A DNA stretch of 64,000 nucleotides, from assembly GCF_032714495.1 (NCBI RefSeq), contig NZ_JAWDKB010000007.1:62001-126000 (forward strand), read 5' to 3'. The position numbers and the translations under genes were made by a program. Of the stretch, positions 23,970 through 33,123 are shown piece after piece. The number at the start of each line of letters is the position of its first letter. Within the stretch, counting starts at the first letter, position 1. The notes under the pieces are model-generated. The model saw only the letters and a program-made list of their open reading frames with translations. It had not been told where the DNA came from and ran no database searches. This DNA is from Methanorbis rubei. Lineage in GTDB: Archaea; Halobacteriota; Methanomicrobia; Methanomicrobiales; Methanocorpusculaceae.

Positions 23970-24046
23970 TCTGCATTTTAGAGTCTCATCACATTCATTC
24001 ACCACTTCAACAGTACACTTACGCCACAGCCACAACAAAAAAAAGT

Positions 24047-24244
24047 TTAGAGCCGGAGCCTCTCCCGCTCCTTCTCCGGCATCCGCACCAGCGGCCTGCG
24101 CAGCCGGTGGTGATGCATCGCGGCCCTCACCGTTGCACGCGTGCACCCATTTCTTAAAGCGATCTCTTCGACCGTCATGCCATAAAACAACTGCCTCTTC
24201 AAAATTTTCCGGTCACACAGCCCCGGATGCTCACGCCATACCAT
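24047..24244 (-). CDS. Small helix-turn-helix protein, last gene of a five-ORF cassette
   Basis: A 65-residue basic protein. LKRQLFYGMTVEEIALRNGC with TRATVRAAMHHHRL forms a homeodomain-like or resolvase-type HTH (about residues 14-45); the C-terminus is very charged. I used the ATG at 24244, which overlaps the upstream gene by 14 bp. It is probably a DNA-binding regulator of its own cassette. I cannot assign a family. Confidence 0.6.
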   Translation of the reverse strand: MVWREHPGLCDRKILKRQLFYGMTVEEIALRNGCTRATVRAAMHHHRLRRPLVRMPEKERERLRL

Positions 24245-24749
24245 GCTCTTTCGCCTCCGCCGCCGTGATGATCTCAGGCCCCGCCACGCGTTCGCGTGCA
24301 ACAACATACGGCCCTATCTCTTCAGGTGTCAAAACCTTTCGAAGATCCGCAAGGTTCACGCGCTCATACTCTGTCACGCGGTCACCTGCGGCACTCTTTG
24401 CACACGCATACAGATATCCGCGTCCGAGGAACTTCTCGACATCACAGCTGCGCAGATGCACAACCTTCTGATGAATCTCAGGCAGTGCGTCACGCAGCTT
24501 TGCAACATTTACTTCGTAGACCGTCTTCGTCGGATGGAAGATCCGGTACTCGGCGCTCTCGACATTTTCCGCACGAATAGTCTCGATATCCAGATGATAC
24601 TGTTCGAGAAATCCGAAGTGGAAGCCTTCAAACGCGTATGCAAGGTCGCGGCTGTGCAGTGCTGCCTCAAACGCGTCGTTTGGACGCGGGTGCAGTTGGG
24701 GTAACGTTGTTTTCAAAAAATGTTCGGTGTTAAAAGGGGTGTAGGTCAT
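24231..24749 (-). CDS. Uncharacterised protein of the 24-25.6 kb cassette
   Basis: A 172-residue soluble protein, no recognised family. It starts MTYTPFNTEHFLKTTLPQL. The middle is mixed helix and strand, and no signal peptide, membrane segment or obvious catalytic motif is seen. It begins in an ATGA overlap with an 18-codon mini-ORF and ends within the start of the HTH gene, so it is translationally coupled on both sides. Confidence 0.65.
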   Translation of the reverse strand: MTYTPFNTEHFLKTTLPQLHPRPNDAFEAALHSRDLAYAFEGFHFGFLEQYHLDIETIRAENVESAEYRIFHPTKTVYEVNVAKLRDALPEIHQKVVHLRSCDVEKFLGRGYLYACAKSAAGDRVTEYERVNLADLRKVLTPEEIGPYVVARERVAGPEIITAAEAKEHGMA

Positions 24750-24802
24750 GGGGAGTCCTGATTTTTGGGGAATTCTTTTCTGATTTCGGTACGTTCGGTC
24801 AT
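24746..24802 (-). CDS. 18-residue mini-cistron coupled to neighbours on both sides
   Basis: The only reading frame spanning the gap between two cassette genes runs from an ATG at 24802 to a TGA at 24746, encoding MTERTEIRKEFPKNQDSP. Its ATG overlaps the upstream stop (ATGA) and its own stop overlaps the downstream ATG (ATGA). This chain suggests ribosomes pass through it to reach the next gene. The peptide itself may have no function. Confidence 0.4.
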   Translation of the reverse strand: MTERTEIRKEFPKNQDSP

Positions 24803-25074
24803 ATGCATCCCTCCGCAGACTTTCTCTTCTCCTGCATGCGGAGACGAATCAGCTGTTTTGCTTCAGCTCTGCTGAGAACATACGTCGTGATCGTCCTCAT
24901 CTCAGCCTGACTGACACGGATTGCCGTATCAGCACGGCACGAAGGGCAGCGGAGCACAGGGGCATCAGCGTCAAGAGTGCCGGTGCCGGTGATCTCGCGA
25001 AGGATGAGTGAGAAGGAAGTGCCGCATGCGGGGCAACAGTAGGTATTTCCGAAATACCCATTGGATTCAGTCAT
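24799..25074 (-). CDS. Zinc-ribbon protein of the cassette
   Basis: A 91-residue protein with a two-knuckle zinc ribbon: CCPACG near residue 13 and RCPSCRAD near residue 43. A helical, charged C-terminus (SRAEAKQLIRLRMQEKRK) follows. Such ribbons bind nucleic acid or act as adaptors. The start at 25074 overlaps the preceding stop by 8 bp; a longer frame inside the upstream gene is unlikely. Confidence 0.65.
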   Translation of the reverse strand: MTESNGYFGNTYCCPACGTSFSLILREITGTGTLDADAPVLRCPSCRADTAIRVSQAEMRTITTYVLSRAEAKQLIRLRMQEKRKSAEGCI

Positions 25075-25582
25075 CTGCTTCCTCCGGCTCAGGCATTTCA
25101 TCCCGACTGAGGCACTCAACCTCCTGCCGCAATTCGCGGTTCAGTTCTGCGCGGTGCTCGGCAAGCTGATCCGCATACGTCGTCTCATACGCCTGTATCC
25201 AGACCCGCATTTGTTCAATGGTAGGAATCCGGCCGAGGCGTTCGGTCATAGCACTCTGAAGTTCGGAAAAGAGCAGTTCGTACGCGGTCTGCGCGCCGCG
25301 GGAAGCGATCACCGGAAAGGCAAGCTCGCTTAGGATGTCAAAGTAGGTCTGCCACATCAAATCATGCGCGAGGGCTGCAGATCGTCTGGCTGCTATCCAC
25401 TGAATGGTTGGAGGATCAAGGTCTCCGGTGATGTGGTGTTTGGCTGCATGGCAGCCGTAGAGAGTAACACGGGATACCGCAGTGTAGTAGGCACTTCGGC
25501 TCTGATATCCCATGTTTTTGACGAGTTTTCCCAGATTCTGGTACTCCTCGTCGGTGAGATTGGTGTAGGCATGGCGTTTCAT
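25067..25582 (-). CDS. RHH-like N-terminal protein, first gene of the cassette
   Basis: A 171-residue protein. N-terminal TNLTDEEYQNLGKLVKNMGY then QSRSAYYTAVSRVTLY (about 6-42) resembles ribbon-helix-helix proteins of plasmid mobilisation or antitoxin type. The rest is helical, with an acidic tail ending EPEEADD. The frame extends upstream to a TTG at 25687, but that part is low-complexity Arg/Glu, so the ATG at 25582 is preferred. A strong TATA-like AT stretch lies at 25696-25725. Function unknown. Confidence 0.6.
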   Translation of the reverse strand: MKRHAYTNLTDEEYQNLGKLVKNMGYQSRSAYYTAVSRVTLYGCHAAKHHITGDLDPPTIQWIAARRSAALAHDLMWQTYFDILSELAFPVIASRGAQTAYELLFSELQSAMTERLGRIPTIEQMRVWIQAYETTYADQLAEHRAELNRELRQEVECLSRDEMPEPEEADD

Positions 25583-25605
25583 GGCAAGGTTTTCCCTGAG
25601 GGGCG

Positions 25606-25847
25606 AGGAGCGAGGAGCTGTTCGGCTCCTGATGAAATGAAAGAGAGGTTCGCAGAAGCTTTCTGTCTCTCTTTCTCTCTCGCACAACTACAACCATCGA
25701 AGTATATATTTATACTATAAATGACATATATGTTACACAAGAGTATTCAGCGGGGCACATGCATTGGGATAAGAAAGAGTGTGCGGGGTCGTGGCCCGTG
25801 TGTTCTTTTTCCCTGATACATGCAACAGCTCTTAGCTCCTCGCTCCT
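25606..25847. repeat. Inverted repeat bracketing the cassette promoter region
   Basis: AGGAGCGAGGAGCT at 25606-25619 is exactly complementary to AGCTCCTCGCTCCT at 25834-25847. Each arm also makes its own small hairpin (GGAGC-TGTTCG-GCTCC on the left; CTCCTG-TTGTG-CAGGAG on the right). The AT-rich promoter-like stretch of the cassette lies between the arms. Confidence 0.6.
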
Positions 25848-26513
25848 GTTGTGCAGGAGTTGGTTCCTGGTAGACTGAACTACCATTGATGAGTGATCCG
25901 GTGTTTTGTGTAAAGCTGCAAAATGGATCAGTCATCATCAGTTTTCAAAAATTGTGTGATGTTTTGCGATACCTCCCATCGTCCGCAAGTCGGCACGACA
26001 GTATTTTGATCGGTATTTTTGGTATTTATTTTTTTGTGATTGGTTGTTCTTTTCGACAAAAGATAGTTTTATTATGGATGATTTTGGGATTTTCACTCGA
26101 AAACATCGATATTATGTCTTTCGCAAATCAGGGAGTGGGTTACTTAAACATATTTTTTGCGGCAAATTTTTGCGAAAAGAGCAGGCGCATACATCTCAGG
26201 ATGAATTTGACGATTACATCCTCTCAGGATAGTATATTATCTCCTCCTTCATATTAAATCTGCCCCCTCCGCGTCTGAAATTTGGAATTCTTCTGAAATA
26301 CTCGGTAGAATCACCCCGCCGCATTCGGGCTCCCTACTGGTTTTGAACAGTTTGTGAGATATTGTTTTCTTATTATGTCATTTTATTCCTCATTTTTCGA
26401 TGTTTATCGCAATTTTTATTGTGTGTTTTCCGACTTTGTACGTCCTATCCTGATAGGAAATAATCGGCCGCAACTTCCTTCCGAAGAAGTGTCCGCACAA
26501 TGTTTCCGGCTAA
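25848..26513. other. AT-rich intergenic region before the adhesin
   Basis: About 660 bp of AT-rich DNA with no convincing gene. Two plus-strand frames exist: 123 codons from a TTG at 25886, and 62 codons at 26044-26232. Both lack a ribosome-binding site and family features; the second (ending DEFDDYILSG) could be a gene fragment. A 7-bp palindrome TCCTATC-CT-GATAGGA lies at 26443-26458, about 55 bp before the adhesin start, and could be an operator. Confidence 0.5.
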
Positions 26514-26546
26514 ATGAATGTGGTATGTATGAATGTGGTATGTATG
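26514..26546 (+). repeat. Tandem 15-bp repeat at the adhesin start
   Basis: ATGAATGTGGTATGT occurs twice in tandem and a third partial unit begins ATG. Each unit is five codons (MNVVC), so three in-frame ATG starts are offered. Gain or loss of a unit would keep the frame and change the spacing from the promoter. Confidence 0.75.
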
Positions 26547-29500
26547 TGTGTGTCATTGAATGACGATTCCGTGAAAAAAATTTCGTGCAGATCATGGATG
26601 CAGTATGCCCTGCTGCTGTGTGCAGTACTGTTGTGTGCGTGTGTACTGTTTACAGCTCCGGTTGCGGCATCGCCGGATGATGCCTTTGTATTTAATGGAG
26701 GAACCTTCGCCACCGCCCAGGCTCTTGCAGTTGCCCTCGGTTCTGCTGCCACCGCCGCCGACGATACTCTCACGCTCAACCAAGATCTCCTCCTCACCGG
26801 ACCGGTGAATATCACTGGAAGCATGACGATCATTGGTAACGGTCACACCATATGGCGCGGCGGCAATAACTTCTTCCTCATCAACGTCAGTGTTGGAATA
26901 CTCACGCTTGGCGGACCATCAGATATATTGATCATTAATGCATCGACGGATGAATTCTACAGCAACTGCGGCTTGATTCAGGTTACCGGCTCTGGCAGTG
27001 AACTTATCATGAACGACGGTGTCACCATAACTGGTGACTCCGAAAATAACTTTTATGAGGGGGGCAGCGTCTGTATTGTCTCCGGTGGTAATTTCACTAT
27101 GCATGGCGGCAACATCACCGATAACTGGGCTGGAACTGGTGGTGGCGTTTACGTCTCCGGCGGTAGCAGTTTCACTATGTACGGCGGCAACATCACCGAC
27201 AACAGAGGTTCTGATGGTGGTGGCGTCTACGTCACCTCCGGTAGCAGTTTCACTATGCATGGCGGCAACATCACTGGCAACCGTGCTAGTGGTAGTGGTG
27301 GCGGTGTCCGTGTCTCCGACCCTTACCCCTACACCGGCTCTTTCTTCACTATGGACGGCGGTAAAATCTTCGGCAACCGTGCTGGTGATGGCGGCGGTGT
27401 CTATGTTGGTGTTGTCGGCAATTTCACTATGAACGGCGGTGAAATTTTCGACAACATTGTGACTCAGTATGGCGGTGGCGTCAGGGTTTATGGCCTTAAC
27501 GCTGTGTTCACTATGAATAACGGCAAGATATTCAATAATACTGCACAGTATGGCGGTGGCGTCGATCTCGAGGGGTACGGCGGTGGCAGTTTCACTATGG
27601 GCGGCGGCGAAATCTCCGGTAACACTGCGACTAATAAGGGTGGTGGTATCAGGTCAAGTGGCGATGTCACTATTGACGACGGCGAAATTTCCGGTAATAC
27701 TGCACAGAATGGCGGTGGTGCCTTCCTTTACGGCAACAGTTTCACGATGCATGCCGGCAAAATCTCCGGCAACACCGGATCTACATATGCTGCTATCGGA
27801 TTCGAGAAATTAGAATTCGCCACAACATCATTTCTCATGACCGGCGGCGAGATCTCTCACAACATCGCGAAAGAATCCGACGGTGCTGCCATTGGATTCA
27901 ATAGCTCAAATCCTATTGTTGTGATCGTTACCATCACCGACGGCAGCATCATACACAATCAGGGTCACGCTATCAGTCAGAGCGGCGGCTTAAATACCCA
28001 AGGCACCTACAACATCGGGGGGACCACTCTCTTTCTCAACAACACCGGCAGCCATTTCTACATGAAGTCAGGCGATGCAACCCTCAACCTCACCGGCGGC
28101 GAATACAAAAAAGGAGAAAATACTGTCAACCTGCTCGACACGTCAGGCAAGACTGCTGTTTATCTCTCAGGCCCGGTCACCTTCGACGCTGACCTTCCGT
28201 TCACTCTCAACAGCAAGGACTCCACGGTAACCGTCAACGGAGAGTTCACCGGTATGATTCACAGCTTCAATCCGATCGCAGAAGATCTCGACAACGTAGC
28301 ACTCATCACAGTTGACAACACAAAGACAACTCAGAAACCATCCGAACTTCTCAGCAGATTTGCCCTTCTTGACACCAAAAAGTGGACACTTGTCGCTGAC
28401 GACAACACAGACACCATCAAAACCGTTATTAACAAACCGATTGCCCTCGCGGGTTCGGGCAACGTCACCGTCACCTGGATCAACGCAACTGTTGCCAACG
28501 TCAGCATCCGGCTCGACCCGAACGCCAACGACGCAACCGACGTCTATGTCAGACTCGGCAGCAGTGAGTCGCAGAAACTCTCCGGCGGCACCTTCGTCAA
28601 AGGCTCCACCATCAGTGACCTTCAGGTCACCGGCCTTACCGCAGGGACCTCCTACTCTGTTGCCGCCGTCCTCAAAAACACCGGCATCAGCTCAAGTGAG
28701 TTCACCTCTTCGAACCTTCTGGACACAACCTCCCCGACACCTCACACAGTCACCATCACCGGAACAGGAGGCGCACCTCTGCCTGACGGCGGTGCCAATC
28801 TTGGACAGGGCAAGAGCATGACCTTCGGCGTCCTCGTCTATGATGCAAGCGACAAACTCCTCAAAGACGAACCGGTCACCTGGAGTAAAACCGGAGCCTT
28901 CACAATCGAAGGAACGAAAACCGCCACCACCATCACCCTGACCGGCGGCAGCAGTGACGGAACTGACACCCTCACTGCAACCGCCGGCGGCGCTACCGGA
29001 ACTGCATCCATCAGTGTAACCACAGACACACCGACCAAACTTACCGTTAATGCTGACAAACAGACAATCGCTCTCGGCGACAGTGTATCTCTCACCCCGA
29101 TAGCGACAGATAACGGCGGCAAACAGTTCGCCGGATACGACGTCGAGTGGACTGTCAGTCCGTCCGGCACCATTGCAGACAGCAAAACAGGCGCAGCCGC
29201 AGCATTCACCCCGACAGTCGCAGGCAGTTACACCATCACAGCATCCGTCAGCGATCCGTCTCTTACCGCACAGACCACCATCACCGTCGTTGCCAAACCA
29301 ACAATCACCACCCAGCCGCAGAGCGCAACCTACATCAAAGGCCAGACCGCAGCCCAACTCACCGTAACCGCGTCCGGTGCCGCACTCGGCTACCAGTGGC
29401 AGAAATCCACTGACCCGAGCTTTAATGCAGACGTCAGTACTGTCGGAACCAATAGTAGAACCTACCCTCCTGACATCAGCACTGCAGGCACCACCTACTA

Positions 29501-31217
29501 CCGCGTAAACGTCACCAACACTCAGAACGACTTTGTCACCCACACCTACAGCAGTGCGGCAATGATCACCGTCCTCGAACCAACCGCAGACAAGATCGAA
29601 CTCAATAAAACATCCGTCACCATCCAGAAAGAGGGTGCCGCCGCCCAAATCACTGCAACTGCAAAAAACACTACCCTTGACACAAATCTTGACACTGCCG
29701 TGATCACCTGGTCAATCGAAACCGGCGGCGAATACGTATCCATCACTCAGGCTGGAAACACTGTCACCATCACCGGCAAACAGGCAGGAACCGCTGTCAT
29801 CAGCGCATCATCCGGCAGCGCTGCGGCAAAGGCAACCGTCATCGTCACCGACCAGACCGTAACAACCCATACCATCACTGCCAGTGCAGGCACCGGTGGC
29901 AGCATCAACCCGAATGGTGAAATTCCTGTCGTCGAAGGAAGTAGTCAGGGTTTCACCATCACCCCTGACACCGGCTACGAAATTACAAACGTCATAGTTG
30001 ACGGAACATCCGTCGACGCTGTCAACTACTACAAGTTCGACTCTGTAATGGAATCCCACACCATCGCTGCAACGTTCACCGCAACCTCCTACACCATCAC
30101 CGCAAGTGCAGGCCCAGGCGGCAGCATCAGCCCGAGCGGAGCAGTCACCGCCGCCCCGGGAGATGACAAATCCTTCACCATCACTGCGGCAACCGGCTAC
30201 AAAATTGCAGACGTCAAAGTTGACGGAACATCCGTCGGTGCTGCCAGCAGCCACACCATCGAAAACATTCAGGCAGCTTGCACCATCCGTGCAGAGTTTT
30301 CAGAGCTCCCTCCCTCCACTGTTACCATCACCGCGACAGCAGGTCCCGGCGGCAGCATCAGCCCGAGCGGAGCTGTCTCTGTCACTTCGGGAGATGACAA
30401 ATCCTTCAGCATCAATCCCGCAGACGGCTACAAAATTGCAGATGTCAAAGTTGATGGAAGATCTGTTGGTGCGGTCTCCAGCTACACTATCCAAAACATT
30501 GTGGCAGACCATACCATCGCTGCAACCTTCACCGGTGTACCGACCCCTGTCCCGACGGGTGGAGGTTCCTCTGACGGTGGATACAGCGGCTCAACCAGTG
30601 CAGGCATCAGCCTGACCGGTAGTGTATCCTTCGGCAGCTCGGTCGGATTCACCAGTGTAGACTTCCCTCAGGGAACCACAGGAACCGTGGTCCTGAACAC
30701 CAAACCCTCAGGAATTCCGGAGCCACAGAACAGTTACCTTGTCAGTGACATCTCGGCCCCCTCATTCCAGGGCTCAGCCCAGGTTGAGTTCAGTGTCCCT
30801 GCAGCACTCATCAGAGATCAGGGACTTGGTGTGAACGACGTCGTCCTCCGTCACTACGTAAACGGCGAATGGGTAAACCTCCCGACGTTCTTCATCGGCG
30901 AAGAGCGTGGTGCAGCACACTACGTTGCAACAACGTCCAGCTTCTCACCCTTTGCCATCGTCTATGAAAAAGGCGGGGCATCAACCGTTGAGAAGTCCAC
31001 GCCGCAGCCGACCGTTGCCGCAGGCACTGCCGCTGCAACGTCAGCAGCAACAGCCTCTGCAACAAATGCTCAGGCATCTGCGGCCACCCCTGTTCCAACG
31101 AACCCCGCAGGCAGCGCTGCAACCGCAGCACCCACGCTCACCCAGGCCCCCGTACCGGTTGCCGGAGCACTCTTCGGACTGCTTGCAGCCTGTGTAATGC
31201 TAAGGAGAAGGAACTAA
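26514..31217 (+). CDS. Giant surface adhesin: beta-helix, Ig-like, InlB-type repeats and PGF-pre-PGF domain
   Basis: A 1567-residue secreted, wall-anchored protein. A hydrophobic signal segment (about 28-50, ending PVAAS) is preceded by the repeat-encoded start. About nine parallel beta-helix repeats of the type FTMxGGxIxxNxAxxGGGV fill residues 190-430. Fibronectin- and Ig-like (Big) regions span about 640-1115. Three divergent InlB B-repeats with TITASAGPGGSISPSG fall at about 1120-1340. A PGF-pre-PGF-like domain ending SFSPFAIVYE lies at about 1365-1490. An Ala/Thr/Pro linker precedes a final membrane helix and RRRN tail, an archaeosortase-like C-terminus. The start may be 26514, 26529 or 26544. 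It probably mediates surface attachment; the ligand is unknown. Confidence 0.9.
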   Translation: MNVVCMNVVCMCVSLNDDSVKKISCRSWMQYALLLCAVLLCACVLFTAPVAASPDDAFVFNGGTFATAQALAVALGSAATAADDTLTLNQDLLLTGPVNITGSMTIIGNGHTIWRGGNNFFLINVSVGILTLGGPSDILIINASTDEFYSNCGLIQVTGSGSELIMNDGVTITGDSENNFYEGGSVCIVSGGNFTMHGGNITDNWAGTGGGVYVSGGSSFTMYGGNITDNRGSDGGGVYVTSGSSFTMHGGNITGNRASGSGGGVRVSDPYPYTGSFFTMDGGKIFGNRAGDGGGVYVGVVGNFTMNGGEIFDNIVTQYGGGVRVYGLNAVFTMNNGKIFNNTAQYGGGVDLEGYGGGSFTMGGGEISGNTATNKGGGIRSSGDVTIDDGEISGNTAQNGGGAFLYGNSFTMHAGKISGNTGSTYAAIGFEKLEFATTSFLMTGGEISHNIAKESDGAAIGFNSSNPIVVIVTITDGSIIHNQGHAISQSGGLNTQGTYNIGGTTLFLNNTGSHFYMKSGDATLNLTGGEYKKGENTVNLLDTSGKTAVYLSGPVTFDADLPFTLNSKDSTVTVNGEFTGMIHSFNPIAEDLDNVALITVDNTKTTQKPSELLSRFALLDTKKWTLVADDNTDTIKTVINKPIALAGSGNVTVTWINATVANVSIRLDPNANDATDVYVRLGSSESQKLSGGTFVKGSTISDLQVTGLTAGTSYSVAAVLKNTGISSSEFTSSNLLDTTSPTPHTVTITGTGGAPLPDGGANLGQGKSMTFGVLVYDASDKLLKDEPVTWSKTGAFTIEGTKTATTITLTGGSSDGTDTLTATAGGATGTASISVTTDTPTKLTVNADKQTIALGDSVSLTPIATDNGGKQFAGYDVEWTVSPSGTIADSKTGAAAAFTPTVAGSYTITASVSDPSLTAQTTITVVAKPTITTQPQSATYIKGQTAAQLTVTASGAALGYQWQKSTDPSFNADVSTVGTNSRTYPPDISTAGTTYYRVNVTNTQNDFVTHTYSSAAMITVLEPTADKIELNKTSVTIQKEGAAAQITATAKNTTLDTNLDTAVITWSIETGGEYVSITQAGNTVTITGKQAGTAVISASSGSAAAKATVIVTDQTVTTHTITASAGTGGSINPNGEIPVVEGSSQGFTITPDTGYEITNVIVDGTSVDAVNYYKFDSVMESHTIAATFTATSYTITASAGPGGSISPSGAVTAAPGDDKSFTITAATGYKIADVKVDGTSVGAASSHTIENIQAACTIRAEFSELPPSTVTITATAGPGGSISPSGAVSVTSGDDKSFSINPADGYKIADVKVDGRSVGAVSSYTIQNIVADHTIAATFTGVPTPVPTGGGSSDGGYSGSTSAGISLTGSVSFGSSVGFTSVDFPQGTTGTVVLNTKPSGIPEPQNSYLVSDISAPSFQGSAQVEFSVPAALIRDQGLGVNDVVLRHYVNGEWVNLPTFFIGEERGAAHYVATTSSFSPFAIVYEKGGASTVEKSTPQPTVAAGTAAATSAATASATNAQASAATPVPTNPAGSAATAAPTLTQAPVPVAGALFGLLAACVMLRRRN

Positions 31218-31238
31218 TCCTTCTTTTTTATTTTTTCC
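31218..31238 (+). terminator. T-rich terminator after the adhesin
   Basis: The adhesin stop is followed at once by a CTTCTTTTTTATTTTTTCC stretch, a likely archaeal terminator. Confidence 0.55.
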
Positions 31239-31300
31239 ATCTCGTAAAAGTGACCACTTCATCGTCTGGCAACATTTCATCTCAATTCCAATCAGCGAAT

Positions 31301-31888
31301 GCTGCACCGGCGGCACATGGCAATCATCCGATACCCACCAATGATGAACCGGGCAATAATTCCGGCCCGCTAAAAAAAAATCGTAAAAGCAGATGTGGTT
31401 GGTGTTTTGCACCATGCTTCACTAAAGATCAATATTGTTCATCACAAACAGCACACACGTCGGATGATGCCGGCCGTAACCGGTGAATCCACCGGTCGGG
31501 ATCGACTTGTCGGAAAATTTTAGCTGCAGATTTCATACAAGTCTCCACACCCAAATCCCGTCCATTCCTTCCGATCTCCCAATCTTTCCAGAAATCAGCC
31601 ACTGCTGCACCGGCGGCACATGGCATCATCCGATAACCCAACCATGATGAACCGGGCCATAATTCCGGGCCCGTAAAAAAAATCGTAAAAGCCAATGTTG
31701 CAGTTTTTGTACTGCAACACATCACCTAAAATGTTCCCGCGATAGAGACGCGGAAACATTTTGTTCATCACAAACAGCACACATATCGGATGATGTCGGC
31801 CGTTACCGGTGAAACACCGGTCGGGATACCTGACTTGTCACAAGAGTTTGCTACAGGCTCCATGCAAGTCCCCACACCCATATCCCGC
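31301..31888. repeat. Tandem duplication of a ~300-bp structured non-coding unit
   Basis: Copy A (31301-31560) and copy B (31604-31888) share a start GCTGCACCGGCGGCACATGG, the TGATGAACCGGGC block, an A-run then TCGTAAAAGC, TTGTTCATCACAAACAGCAC, a 7-bp hairpin ACCGGTG/CACCGGT, and CCCACACCC..ATCCCG. Two further hairpins are kept while bases differ: CGGGC/GCCCG in A becomes CGGGCC/GGCCCG in B, and GGTG-TTTTG-CACC in A becomes GTTGCAGT-TTTTGT-ACTGCAAC in B. B also has an extra hairpin at 31732-31758. No convincing protein is encoded on either strand. Stem conservation suggests a folded RNA or a protein-bound DNA element. Confidence 0.75.
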
Positions 31889-31907
31889 AATAGACAAGTG
31901 ATAATCC

Positions 31908-31997
31908 ATGAACATTACCAGAGCTTTCTTCGCTATAATAGTTCTCTTTGGCATGTGTACCGGCTTCATGATAATCATCTATCTGATGATGAAATAA
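31908..31997 (+). CDS. 29-residue hydrophobic membrane peptide
   Basis: A short frame just downstream of the second structured copy. It encodes MNITRAFFAIIVLFGMCTGF followed by MIIIYLMMK: a single membrane helix with a Lys at the end. An AGTGAT ribosome-binding-like site lies about 7 bp upstream. Such peptides occur as type-I toxins, membrane-complex subunits or chance frames. No homologue is recognised. Confidence 0.35.
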   Translation: MNITRAFFAIIVLFGMCTGFMIIIYLMMK

Positions 31998-32149
31998 ATC
32001 CGTGAACAAAAACACATCCTATTTTTCCAGAAATTTTATGCGCTCTCCCTCTTCGCCACACCAAATTCTCACCAAATCACTCCGTTCTTTTACATCAAGA
32101 ACAACCAAAAACACACATTAATGCATCAATAAGTTCAATATAATATACA

Positions 32150-32195
32150 GAGGCAGGGCATCACCACCCAACGAAAAACACCCGCACCCTGCCTC
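32150..32195 (+). promoter_or_regulatory. Leader hairpin before the 32.2-kb gene
   Basis: GAGGCAGGG at 32150-32158 pairs with CCCTGCCTC at 32187-32195 across a 28-base loop. It lies just after a TATA-like AATATAATATAC and 14 bp before the ATG at 32209, so it would fold in the 5' leader or act as an operator. Confidence 0.55.
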
Positions 32196-32208
32196 GGGAA
32201 CAGAAGAA

Positions 32209-32724
32209 ATGCCCCTCGATTTCACCCCCACCTCTATTGTGAAAGCAGCAAAACGCAGCTTCACCGTACCGATCACAACCGCGACCGCGTTTGACGCAAA
32301 CATCGCCGCACTCAAAGCAGCCGACAACCCTCTTGGTGCAACCGCGTATCAGACTGCGGGCGCGTCCGTTGACGGCGTCACCATCGCAAACGAGTACTAC
32401 AAGGCGACCATCGCCTACCTCAGTCCGCTTGGCGAGGTGATCGGCAGCGTCGTCATCGACGCACCCACCCGCAGCAGCTACGATGTGATCGTTGCCCACA
32501 TCCTTGCAGACACTGCTCTCACCGCGAAGTTTGCCGCAGACGCAGTCGCCGACCGCGACAACACCAAAGATTCCTGGAACGTCCGGCTCAAGATTCACGA
32601 CCCGACCGGCGAGATCTACTTCCTCAACTTCACCAGAAAGGATCTTCGGATCAGCTCTTATGAGAATGATGCGATTCTTGCCAAGGTCGATGCGTGGGCA
32701 GACGGGGTTAACTCCCTGAATTGA
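32209..32724 (+). CDS. Uncharacterised 171-residue protein
   Basis: A soluble-looking protein with no signal peptide or cysteines. It has alternating strands and helices, an Ala-rich stretch (about 25-60), and a C-terminal region DSWNVRLKIHDPTGEIYFLN followed by FTRKDLRISSYENDAILAKV that reads as a beta-sheet then helix. I do not recognise the family. It has its own TATA-like box and leader hairpin, and sits alone among repeat elements, which suggests accessory DNA. Confidence 0.7.
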   Translation: MPLDFTPTSIVKAAKRSFTVPITTATAFDANIAALKAADNPLGATAYQTAGASVDGVTIANEYYKATIAYLSPLGEVIGSVVIDAPTRSSYDVIVAHILADTALTAKFAADAVADRDNTKDSWNVRLKIHDPTGEIYFLNFTRKDLRISSYENDAILAKVDAWADGVNSLN

Positions 32725-32740
32725 AACGGCCCGGAATCAG

Positions 32741-32840
32741 TCGCAAACCTACGGTTTGCTTCTCTCCCCTGCAAGCAGGATCGCTCTCGTAATCGCATGC
32801 CGCTCTGCGGCCTGCTTTACAACTCCTTTCAGGAGTCGCC
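32741..32840. repeat. Cluster of short perfect hairpins with three-base loops
   Basis: Four adjacent palindromes follow the gene end: GCAAACC-TAC-GGTTTGC (32743-32759), CCTGC-AA-GCAGG (about 32769-32780), GCCGC-TCT-GCGGC (32799-32811) and ACTCCT-TTC-AGGAGT (32822-32836). Most have three-base loops. The third lies in CGCATGCC...GGCCTGC, a wording also found at 14.2 and 44.1 kb. Confidence 0.75.
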
Positions 32841-32845
32841 CCATC

Positions 32846-33123
32846 GGGACTCGGTCTCACGGTTGATTGAGATTATTTGAACAATAAACAAGAAAAAAGG
32901 AGAAACATCATGGACACAATCACCACCATCCTCATTATCGGTATTGCAGCACAGGGCATTACCGGCGCCGTCCTCATCCTCGCTGGCCCCATCTATGCGT
33001 GGAACGACAGATGGCTTGATCGTACTCATCGAACAACTGCCGATGAAGACCGGGAGTAAGAAAACTCCCGAACTATTTTTTCGCAAAACTCATTTTTCCC
33101 ATTCAACCGTGAGACCGAGTCCC
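32846..33123. repeat. 21-bp perfect inverted repeat flanking a small ORF (MITE-like element)
   Basis: The 21 bases at 32846-32866, starting GGGACTCGG, are exactly complementary to those at 33103-33123, ending CCGAGTCCC. The similarity stops sharply at both ends. The 236 bp inside contain one short gene with a good ribosome-binding site. No target-site duplication is clear: the left flank reads CCCCATC and the right flank AAAGGG. Confidence 0.75.
32910..33059 (+). CDS. 49-residue single-span membrane protein inside the inverted-repeat element
   Basis: ATG at 32910 is preceded at 8 bp by AAGGAG, a strong ribosome-binding site. Residues 5-29 (TTILIIGIAAQGITG then AVLILAGP) form one membrane helix; the tail NDRWLDRTHRTTADEDRE is charged. 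An upstream start would add 11 residues. Function unknown. The good translation signal and the flanking repeat make a real gene plausible. Confidence 0.5.
   Translation: MDTITTILIIGIAAQGITGAVLILAGPIYAWNDRWLDRTHRTTADEDRE

Follow-up and report, generated by a model that had tools for sequence, protein, structure and literature searches.

The window, by which we mean the whole stretch of 64,000 nucleotides that was analysed, carries on its minus strand a tight group of small open reading frames, designated here genes A, B, D and E and ORF C, and their coordinates are collected with those of the surrounding features in the table below. A preliminary description had reported five frames joined by overlaps of 8, 4, 4 and 14 bp, and we find the coordinates, the strand and the overlaps to be as described. 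One of the five, the 18-codon ORF C, is not conserved, having no equivalent in the B-D spacer of five relatives from the same branch (L036 of genome G012, L040, L041, L042 and L184), and is probably not a gene. On the evidence of their sequences the other four are real genes under purifying selection: between the window and its nearest genome, G012, pN/pS is 0.53 for A, 0.22 for B, 0.29 for D and 0.12 for E, with no internal stops, and the ratio, computed for 19 gene pairs (16 of them of cassette genes), lies below 0.6 in every one, again with no internal stop. Since their homologues recur in the same order elsewhere and pN/pS is low, A, B, D and E are more than chance frames, and they do not look like decayed fragments of larger genes, as had been considered at the outset. 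Next to the cassette and divergent from it lies a gene (26514-31217) for a repeat-rich predicted surface protein of 1567 aa; in G012 a related surface protein gene adjoins a related cassette.

Table. Features of the cassette and its surroundings in the window
Feature	Position	Strand	Description
Gene A	25067..25582	minus	171 aa; predicted ribbon-helix-helix (RHH) N-terminus and conserved C-terminal domain; proposed autorepressor
Gene B	24799..25074	minus	91 aa; four-cysteine zinc ribbon
ORF C	24746..24802	minus	18 codons; B-D spacer, probably not a gene
Gene D	24231..24749	minus	172 aa; helical N-terminus and a domain shared with RecQ and DuOB C-termini and provirus proteins
Gene E	24047..24244	minus	65 aa; helix-turn-helix, sigma70 region-4-like
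Proximal heptad array	25598..25622	minus	GCTCCTC-GCTCCTC-GCCCCTC (cassette strand); between TATA box and gene A
Distal heptad array	25824..25847	minus	inverted copy of the proximal array; upstream of promoter core
Conserved head element	25700..25800	minus	GCACA..TGTGC half-sites, ACTCTTGTGT motif, TATA box; 34-nt core at 25711-25744
Segment of about 9 kb	23970..33012		cassette, 1567-aa surface protein gene, N and most of the membrane peptide gene; missing between these flanks in G012
Gene N	32209..32724	plus	171 aa; upstream of the cassette, in the other orientation
Membrane peptide	32910..33059	plus	49 aa; follows N (N-TM pair)

Three of the four longer products had been thought to bind nucleic acids, a suggestion that is plausible in kind but for which the family scores are weak, the single window proteins returning weak matches only in family searches. 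E matches Sigma70_r4_2 with an E-value of 1.6e-4, below the curated cut-off, B matches zinc ribbons at E 1e-3 or worse only, and D has no match in Pfam or PHROGs.

The genes are found together elsewhere. Our table of D loci has 62 entries from 19 Methanocorpusculum genomes, these being the profile matches with E ≤1e-20 among the regions fetched and leaving out partial or distant matches (G010 C38, G032 C4 and C7, G027 C67, G019 C3 and C16, G023 C312 and G015 C19:93059); many of these genomes are fragmented MAGs, in which contig ends hide neighbouring genes. The D profile finds matches in 20 of the 25 genomes of the genus, including all 12 of those at least 90% complete, and elsewhere in the order in 7 of 174 genomes, where the matches are only distant and mostly partial. 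Each tabulated genome has from one to six related D loci, and there are four copies of D in the window's own genome. E lies directly behind D in 55 of the 62 loci and X is found in 47. The fuller gene order, which also recurs, is A, X, B, D, E, where X is a predicted endonuclease of the HNH_3 family with a C-terminal HTH: the X proteins of L051, L037 and L039 score 39.2, 43.8 and 47.1 bits against HNH_3 (PF13392; cut-off 24.8). Several branches have lost X or have a truncated form of it, and the window copy belongs to a branch without it; an X-less arrangement A-B-D(-E) is seen at seven loci, the window among them, and none of the seven has gene N downstream. In some genomes A is replaced by a different gene, A2 (121 aa), which lies behind a small ORF.

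Paralogues within a genome have diverged in step for most of the cassette. Their pairwise distances correlate between D and E (0.74, 79 pairs), D and A (0.75, 17 pairs) and D and X (0.78, 64 pairs), as against 0.22 between D and N (34 pairs) and -0.20 between E and N (30 pairs), and we take A-X-D-E to be a long-standing unit from which N evolves separately because the former distances correlate and those of N do not. Within one genome, D paralogues lie about 0.6 apart on average and N paralogues 0.16. We found no prior description of the cassette in our searches of the open-access PMC literature; the family is a previously unnamed, genus-specific one, and the finding is both real and larger than the preliminary description made it.

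Several single loci depart from this arrangement. At L184 (1161-1862) D and E are fused in frame to give one open frame of 233 aa. Solo D genes occur at a syntenic site in four genomes (L083 6094-6600, L087 6447-6953, L110 1473-2012 and L183 4717-5172), beside a gene named by eye as CTP-synthase-like, and have perhaps been domesticated. In G032 a 432-bp D-E fragment is duplicated at 99.8% identity (L080 6257-6688 and L084 2359-2790), possibly by a recent copying event or as an effect of assembly.

The strongest new point concerns the sequence upstream of A, where we find putative cassette-specific heptad operators. An inverted repeat of 14 bp had been noted on the promoter side of the window cassette, and it is indeed present with 100% identity (25606-25619 and 25834-25847), as a portion of a 24-nt pair that matches at 88%. 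It is not incidental, being formed by inverted arrays of 7-bp repeats around a conserved core, and the proposal that the cassette might be a regulatory unit is supported by this conserved, bracketed promoter. The core, which lies upstream of A and spans about 95 bp, has a ACTCTTGTGT motif adjoining the TATA box; the arrays flank it, at about 75-115 bp on the upstream side and 60-146 bp on the downstream side. A pattern made from 34 nt of the core has 29 matches in 11 genomes, compared with none for the reversed control pattern, and these fall at 14 cassettes, at 4 loci with A only, with A and B or with a remnant of A, and at 11 sites without A.

Among the A-type cassettes, of which 23 were fetched together with 28 heads and 12 orphan heads (these being the ones fetched and not a full census), 17 give 7 as the best tandem period and 3 give 14, making 20 of the 23. 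The array is significant at p ≤0.02 in 19, although the match of L034 is an A-rich run, and no significant array is present in the other four (L041, L088, L105 and L089). The heptads themselves vary: GCTCCTC in the window gives way elsewhere to TGACGTC, TGAAGTA, TGATGGA, GGCTTGA, AGAAGTG and others; L043, for one, has CTGACGT, and L050 has TGAAGTA. An inverted copy of at least 11 bp joins the two arrays in 16 of 22 cognate pairs (L184, with too little upstream sequence, was excluded) against 24 of 462 non-cognate pairs, and many of those 24 join cassettes of one heptad type. A blind scan for such an array pair gives a single match in the 64-kb window, at the inverted repeat noted earlier, and none in 205,026 bases of other DNA; of the 28 head loci, 23 have the pair. 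Heads that lack an intact cassette (two of which retain remnants of A) have kept the same structure, with period-7 arrays in 12 of 12 and an inverted partner in 11 of 12, L200 being excluded from this set. Orphan heads with heptad arrays lie in the series L191-L204, and several are of one heptad type with a cassette that their own genome carries. Comparable arrays were not found in nine A2-type cassettes, some of which have CT-rich runs. We considered that the heptads might belong to the nuclease X and rejected the idea, as cassettes without X have the arrays and no arrays were seen in A2 cassettes that do carry X. That each copy has its own heptad set suggests that each may switch itself off independently of the others.

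The candidate for the protein that reads these arrays is A. It belongs to no Pfam family (its own alignment has 21 members), and a PDB profile search returns NikR at E 0.08 and MazE9 at E 0.25, which are weak and below significance; RHH proteins nevertheless dominate these weak matches, taken up to E 0.7, and align at the N-terminus of A. The Pfam family RHH_1 is matched by one of the 21 members, at E 0.1. Heptad arrays accompany A, in the A-type cassettes, and were not found with A2. On account of this weak RHH similarity and of the co-occurrence with the arrays, A is the likely heptad reader. In the omega/ParB system of plasmid pSM19035 an RHH protein binds 7-bp heptads that overlap promoters, with low affinity for a single heptad and high affinity for paired ones, according to PMC9499535, and we infer by analogy with such heptad systems that A may be an autorepressor with a private operator. 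Within the M. labreanum group the predicted beta-strand of A varies with the heptad type among the cassettes compared: RQHAYLR or RQHAYLK occurs with CTGACGT or CTGCCGT, RQNAYLN with TGAAGTA, and RQS or RQN..N with TGATGGA or TGATTGA. Across 18 proteins, array similarity tracks the C-terminal part of A (r 0.38) as well as the N-terminal part (r 0.34), so that coevolution of operator and regulator is not separated from shared ancestry.

Gene D suggests links of the cassette to viruses and to recombination. On a provirus-like contig, L091, the genes run B, X, D, RecT, E and are followed by those for a packaging ATPase and a tail-collar-like protein; the RecT of this contig matches PF03837 at E 3.2e-20 and its ATPase matches phrog_2666 at E 7.4e-19. 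Another relative of D (L079/L093) is found with a Sak4-like AAA_24 ATPase and a terminase. The domain of D is also found as the C-terminal part of RecQ helicases and of DuOB proteins, and D aligns to the group of RecQ, DuOB and L071 domains with an hhalign probability of 97.2% (E 2.9e-11). The RecQ and DuOB/HRDC proteins of Methanomicrobiales in which this unnamed C-terminal domain was seen are at L073, L074, L075, L076 and L077. The relative of D at L071 lies beside dnd-like genes, recognised by eye and not by a model. A viral origin of the module and a link to recombination are probable, given the order B-X-D-RecT-E on the provirus contig and the occurrence of the D domain in proteins of the RecQ and DuOB types; the former agrees with an earlier suggestion that the module was derived from a plasmid or a virus. 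No RecT-type gene was seen in the cassette maps, whether in the gene clusters or by eye. Searches of INPHARED phages gave no match to D, to the RecT-linked D or to the L091 ATPase, and those of IMG/VR gave no relatives of D, of a D sub-alignment, of the provirus D, of N or of the L091 ATPase; the L091 RecT has a single relative there, L219, at 29%. The AlphaFold model of D is poor (pLDDT 52).

Downstream of many cassettes lies a second pair of genes, N and a tiny membrane peptide. N is found downstream of D on the same strand and within 6.5 kb in 32 of the 62 loci; among the 50 D loci with enough sequence it is present in 30 and absent in 20, and in two single-contig genomes it is present in all 10. 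By our own arithmetic, from 6-7 copies of N per 1.8 Mb, chance would place it there at roughly 1% of loci. A simple test finds a membrane peptide after N in 41 of 46 N loci, against 40 of 400 random positions; a few of the 41 positives are evidently due to chance. The pair is multi-copy in Methanocorpusculum, and N also occurs in the sister genus, in 8 of 8 genomes. Since N is more uniform within each genome and its distances do not correlate with those of D, it seems to stand outside the cassette, as a host locus or a further element next to which cassettes settle. N has no Pfam, PHROG or PADLOC match. Its AlphaFold model is better (pLDDT 71), and fold searches with the models of D and N gave nothing significant, with no Foldseek match below E 0.02. 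The best VIA match of N is spermine synthase (Z 7.3, 86 residues, rmsd 2.9), in a range that the tool calls common; matches to triphosphate-tunnel and Med18/20 chains, at Z 5-7, were not trusted.

The interval between E and N holds genes of other kinds, among them AbiLi/AbiLii (RloA/RloB) in L048, Fic (SoFic model) in L050, a Roco-type GTPase in L099, a DUF3800 protein in L098 and GxxExxY-type proteins in L043, L047, L052 and L097, the PF13366 model having been run on L047 only and the other GxxExxY assignments made by similarity. A recognisable cargo gene could be named in 8 of the 22 intervals drawn, the rest being short or without one. The Roco-type gene of L099 (3146-7057) encodes an LRR-Roc-COR protein of 1303 aa with a metallophosphatase domain. 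Some N loci that lack D adjoin restriction-modification genes (L131) or RloAB genes (L134).

Evidence bearing on movement is mixed. At the window's site in G012 the segment of about 9 kb is missing, and a cobyrinate-synthase-like gene immediately abuts the tail of the membrane-peptide gene; the related G012 cassette and its surface-protein gene lie on another contig, at 77% DNA identity, compared with 92.5% for the flank. G013 has two cassettes, at separate sites, that share 88.8% identity along 3.7 kb. The vacant site in G012 and the G013 pair fit either movement or repeated loss, and the difference between L033 and L037, the former having lost A and most of X, is plain decay. When the G000 C1 cassette was set against G012 in an empty-site comparison, the result was a break in synteny rather than a clean insertion. 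No terminal inverted repeat or target duplication was seen by eye, at the right end behind N or the left end of A2 cassettes. Nearby integrases, which had been proposed as something to look for, were not found as a regular feature: in the 25 genomes a tyrosine recombinase (PF00589) lies within 5 kb of one of the 62 D loci (G012 C4) and within 10 kb of two, and the cassette is accordingly not read as part of an integrase-carrying provirus or integrative plasmid. A casposon was likewise rejected, Cas1 (PF01867) lying within 5 kb of one of the 62 (G031 C1:291060).

Our preferred reading, which we consider about as likely to be right as not, is that the window genes belong to a family of cassettes, A-(X)-B-D-E, which derive from a virus, process DNA, regulate themselves and lie at the heart of dispersed Methanocorpusculum genomic islands; the window copy would be one of the members without X. 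Under such a scheme the RHH-like A would bind the heptad arrays that bracket its promoter and repress the cassette, and the separate heptad sequence of each cassette would allow the copies in one genome to be controlled independently, much as phage immunity groups are. Upon derepression the HNH nuclease X would cut DNA, and B, D and E would act on the resulting DNA or its ends, the domain of D being otherwise found with recombination proteins. This would enable the cassette, and the defence genes that accompany it, to spread, or to recombine, among sites next to the repeated N-membrane-peptide pairs. The nuclease, D and the viral relative are what suggest a cut-and-recombine function; as X is absent, the window copy, which also lies away from N, would have only the regulatory and accessory part, keeping its self-regulation and not cutting. 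The gene family, its order, the selection on it, the common promoter with arrays specific to each cassette, the virus-like homologues and the linkage to N and to defence genes are observed; binding by A, cutting by X, the part of D in recombination and mobility itself are all inferred. A further step, that these are a class of mobile archaeal defence island in which a virus-derived nuclease and recombination cassette homes between N loci with interchangeable defence genes and a private heptad operator, we put forward as a tentative and somewhat doubtful possibility.

The presence of AbiLi/AbiLii, Fic, Roco and DUF3800 genes between E and N, the restriction-modification and RloAB genes beside cassette-less N loci, and the fast divergence of paralogous cassettes (mean D distance about 0.6) would also fit the cassette being itself an antiviral defence system, in which a regulated nuclease X, with D, E and B as sensor or adaptor, is silenced by A and recruited into defence islands. 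A defence unit had been suggested at the outset, and the neighbourhood does fit; the window proteins do not, PADLOC-DB 2.0.0 giving no families for A, B, D, E and N, and the seven loci of the window's branch (A-B-D-E or A-B-D) would have no effector. Moreover the nearest relative beyond the family itself is the recombination block of a provirus and not a defence locus, and we regard this explanation as unlikely. It is still less likely that the cassettes are functionless provirus remnants, early-gene blocks that persist in slow decay after deletion of the rest. There are partial copies enough to raise the idea (B-D-E-N at L033, which has lost genes that L037 retains, X missing or truncated in several, A only at L198, A-B at L203, and the orphan heads), and G012 lacks the whole 9-kb segment; against it stand the low pN/pS and absence of internal stops in 19 of 19 gene pairs, the promoter and cassette-specific arrays kept across deep divergence, and the solo D kept at one syntenic site in four genomes. 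That the arrays and A might be a centromere-like partition or incompatibility system of an integrated plasmid, the other genes being replication accessories, draws on the omega/ParB heptads of pSM19035, which according to PMC9499535 act as parS centromeres as well as at promoters, and the orphan heads could then be extra sites; no ParA-type ATPase was seen by eye beside A in the maps drawn, and we think this improbable.

Each of the known systems that the cassette resembles differs from it in some respect. Omega/ParB of pSM19035 likewise has arrays of 7-bp repeats, direct and inverted, that overlap the promoter of the RHH gene (PMC9499535), whereas A has an extra conserved C-terminal domain and the cassette heptads, which are predicted sites only, differ between copies and form two inverted blocks about 200 bp apart. 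Family 2 casposons, found in archaea including methanogens, have an accessory set (HNH, HTH, ZBD and RHH) with the same mix of small DNA-binding proteins and an HNH protein, as described in PMC4046053, but the cassettes have no casposase Cas1. The early or recombination modules of proviruses, with RecT or Sak4-like ATPases, come close in that L091 has homologues of B, X, D and E in cassette order; L091, however, has RecT between D and E, which the cassettes do not appear to have, and the cassettes carry A and have no recognised packaging or structural genes around them. In the RecQ and DuOB/HRDC proteins of Methanomicrobiales it is the C-terminal domain that is homologous to the middle of D, and D, as judged by family search, has no helicase, HRDC or OB domain.

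D ties an unnamed domain to recombination proteins, namely RecQ, DuOB and neighbours of RecT, and the A-type cassettes, with varied putative operator codes around the same core, represent a natural repressor-operator library in which an RHH recognition code is testable by comparison of the copies. If the mobile-island reading is true, each copy would have its own immunity group and many related copies could coexist without silencing one another. Furthermore, should the cassettes prove to be the mobile part at the centre of defence islands in archaea, they would show how methanogens can collect antiviral genes and transfer them with no integrase, and the core with its inverted heptads would provide a promoter signature for finding such islands elsewhere.
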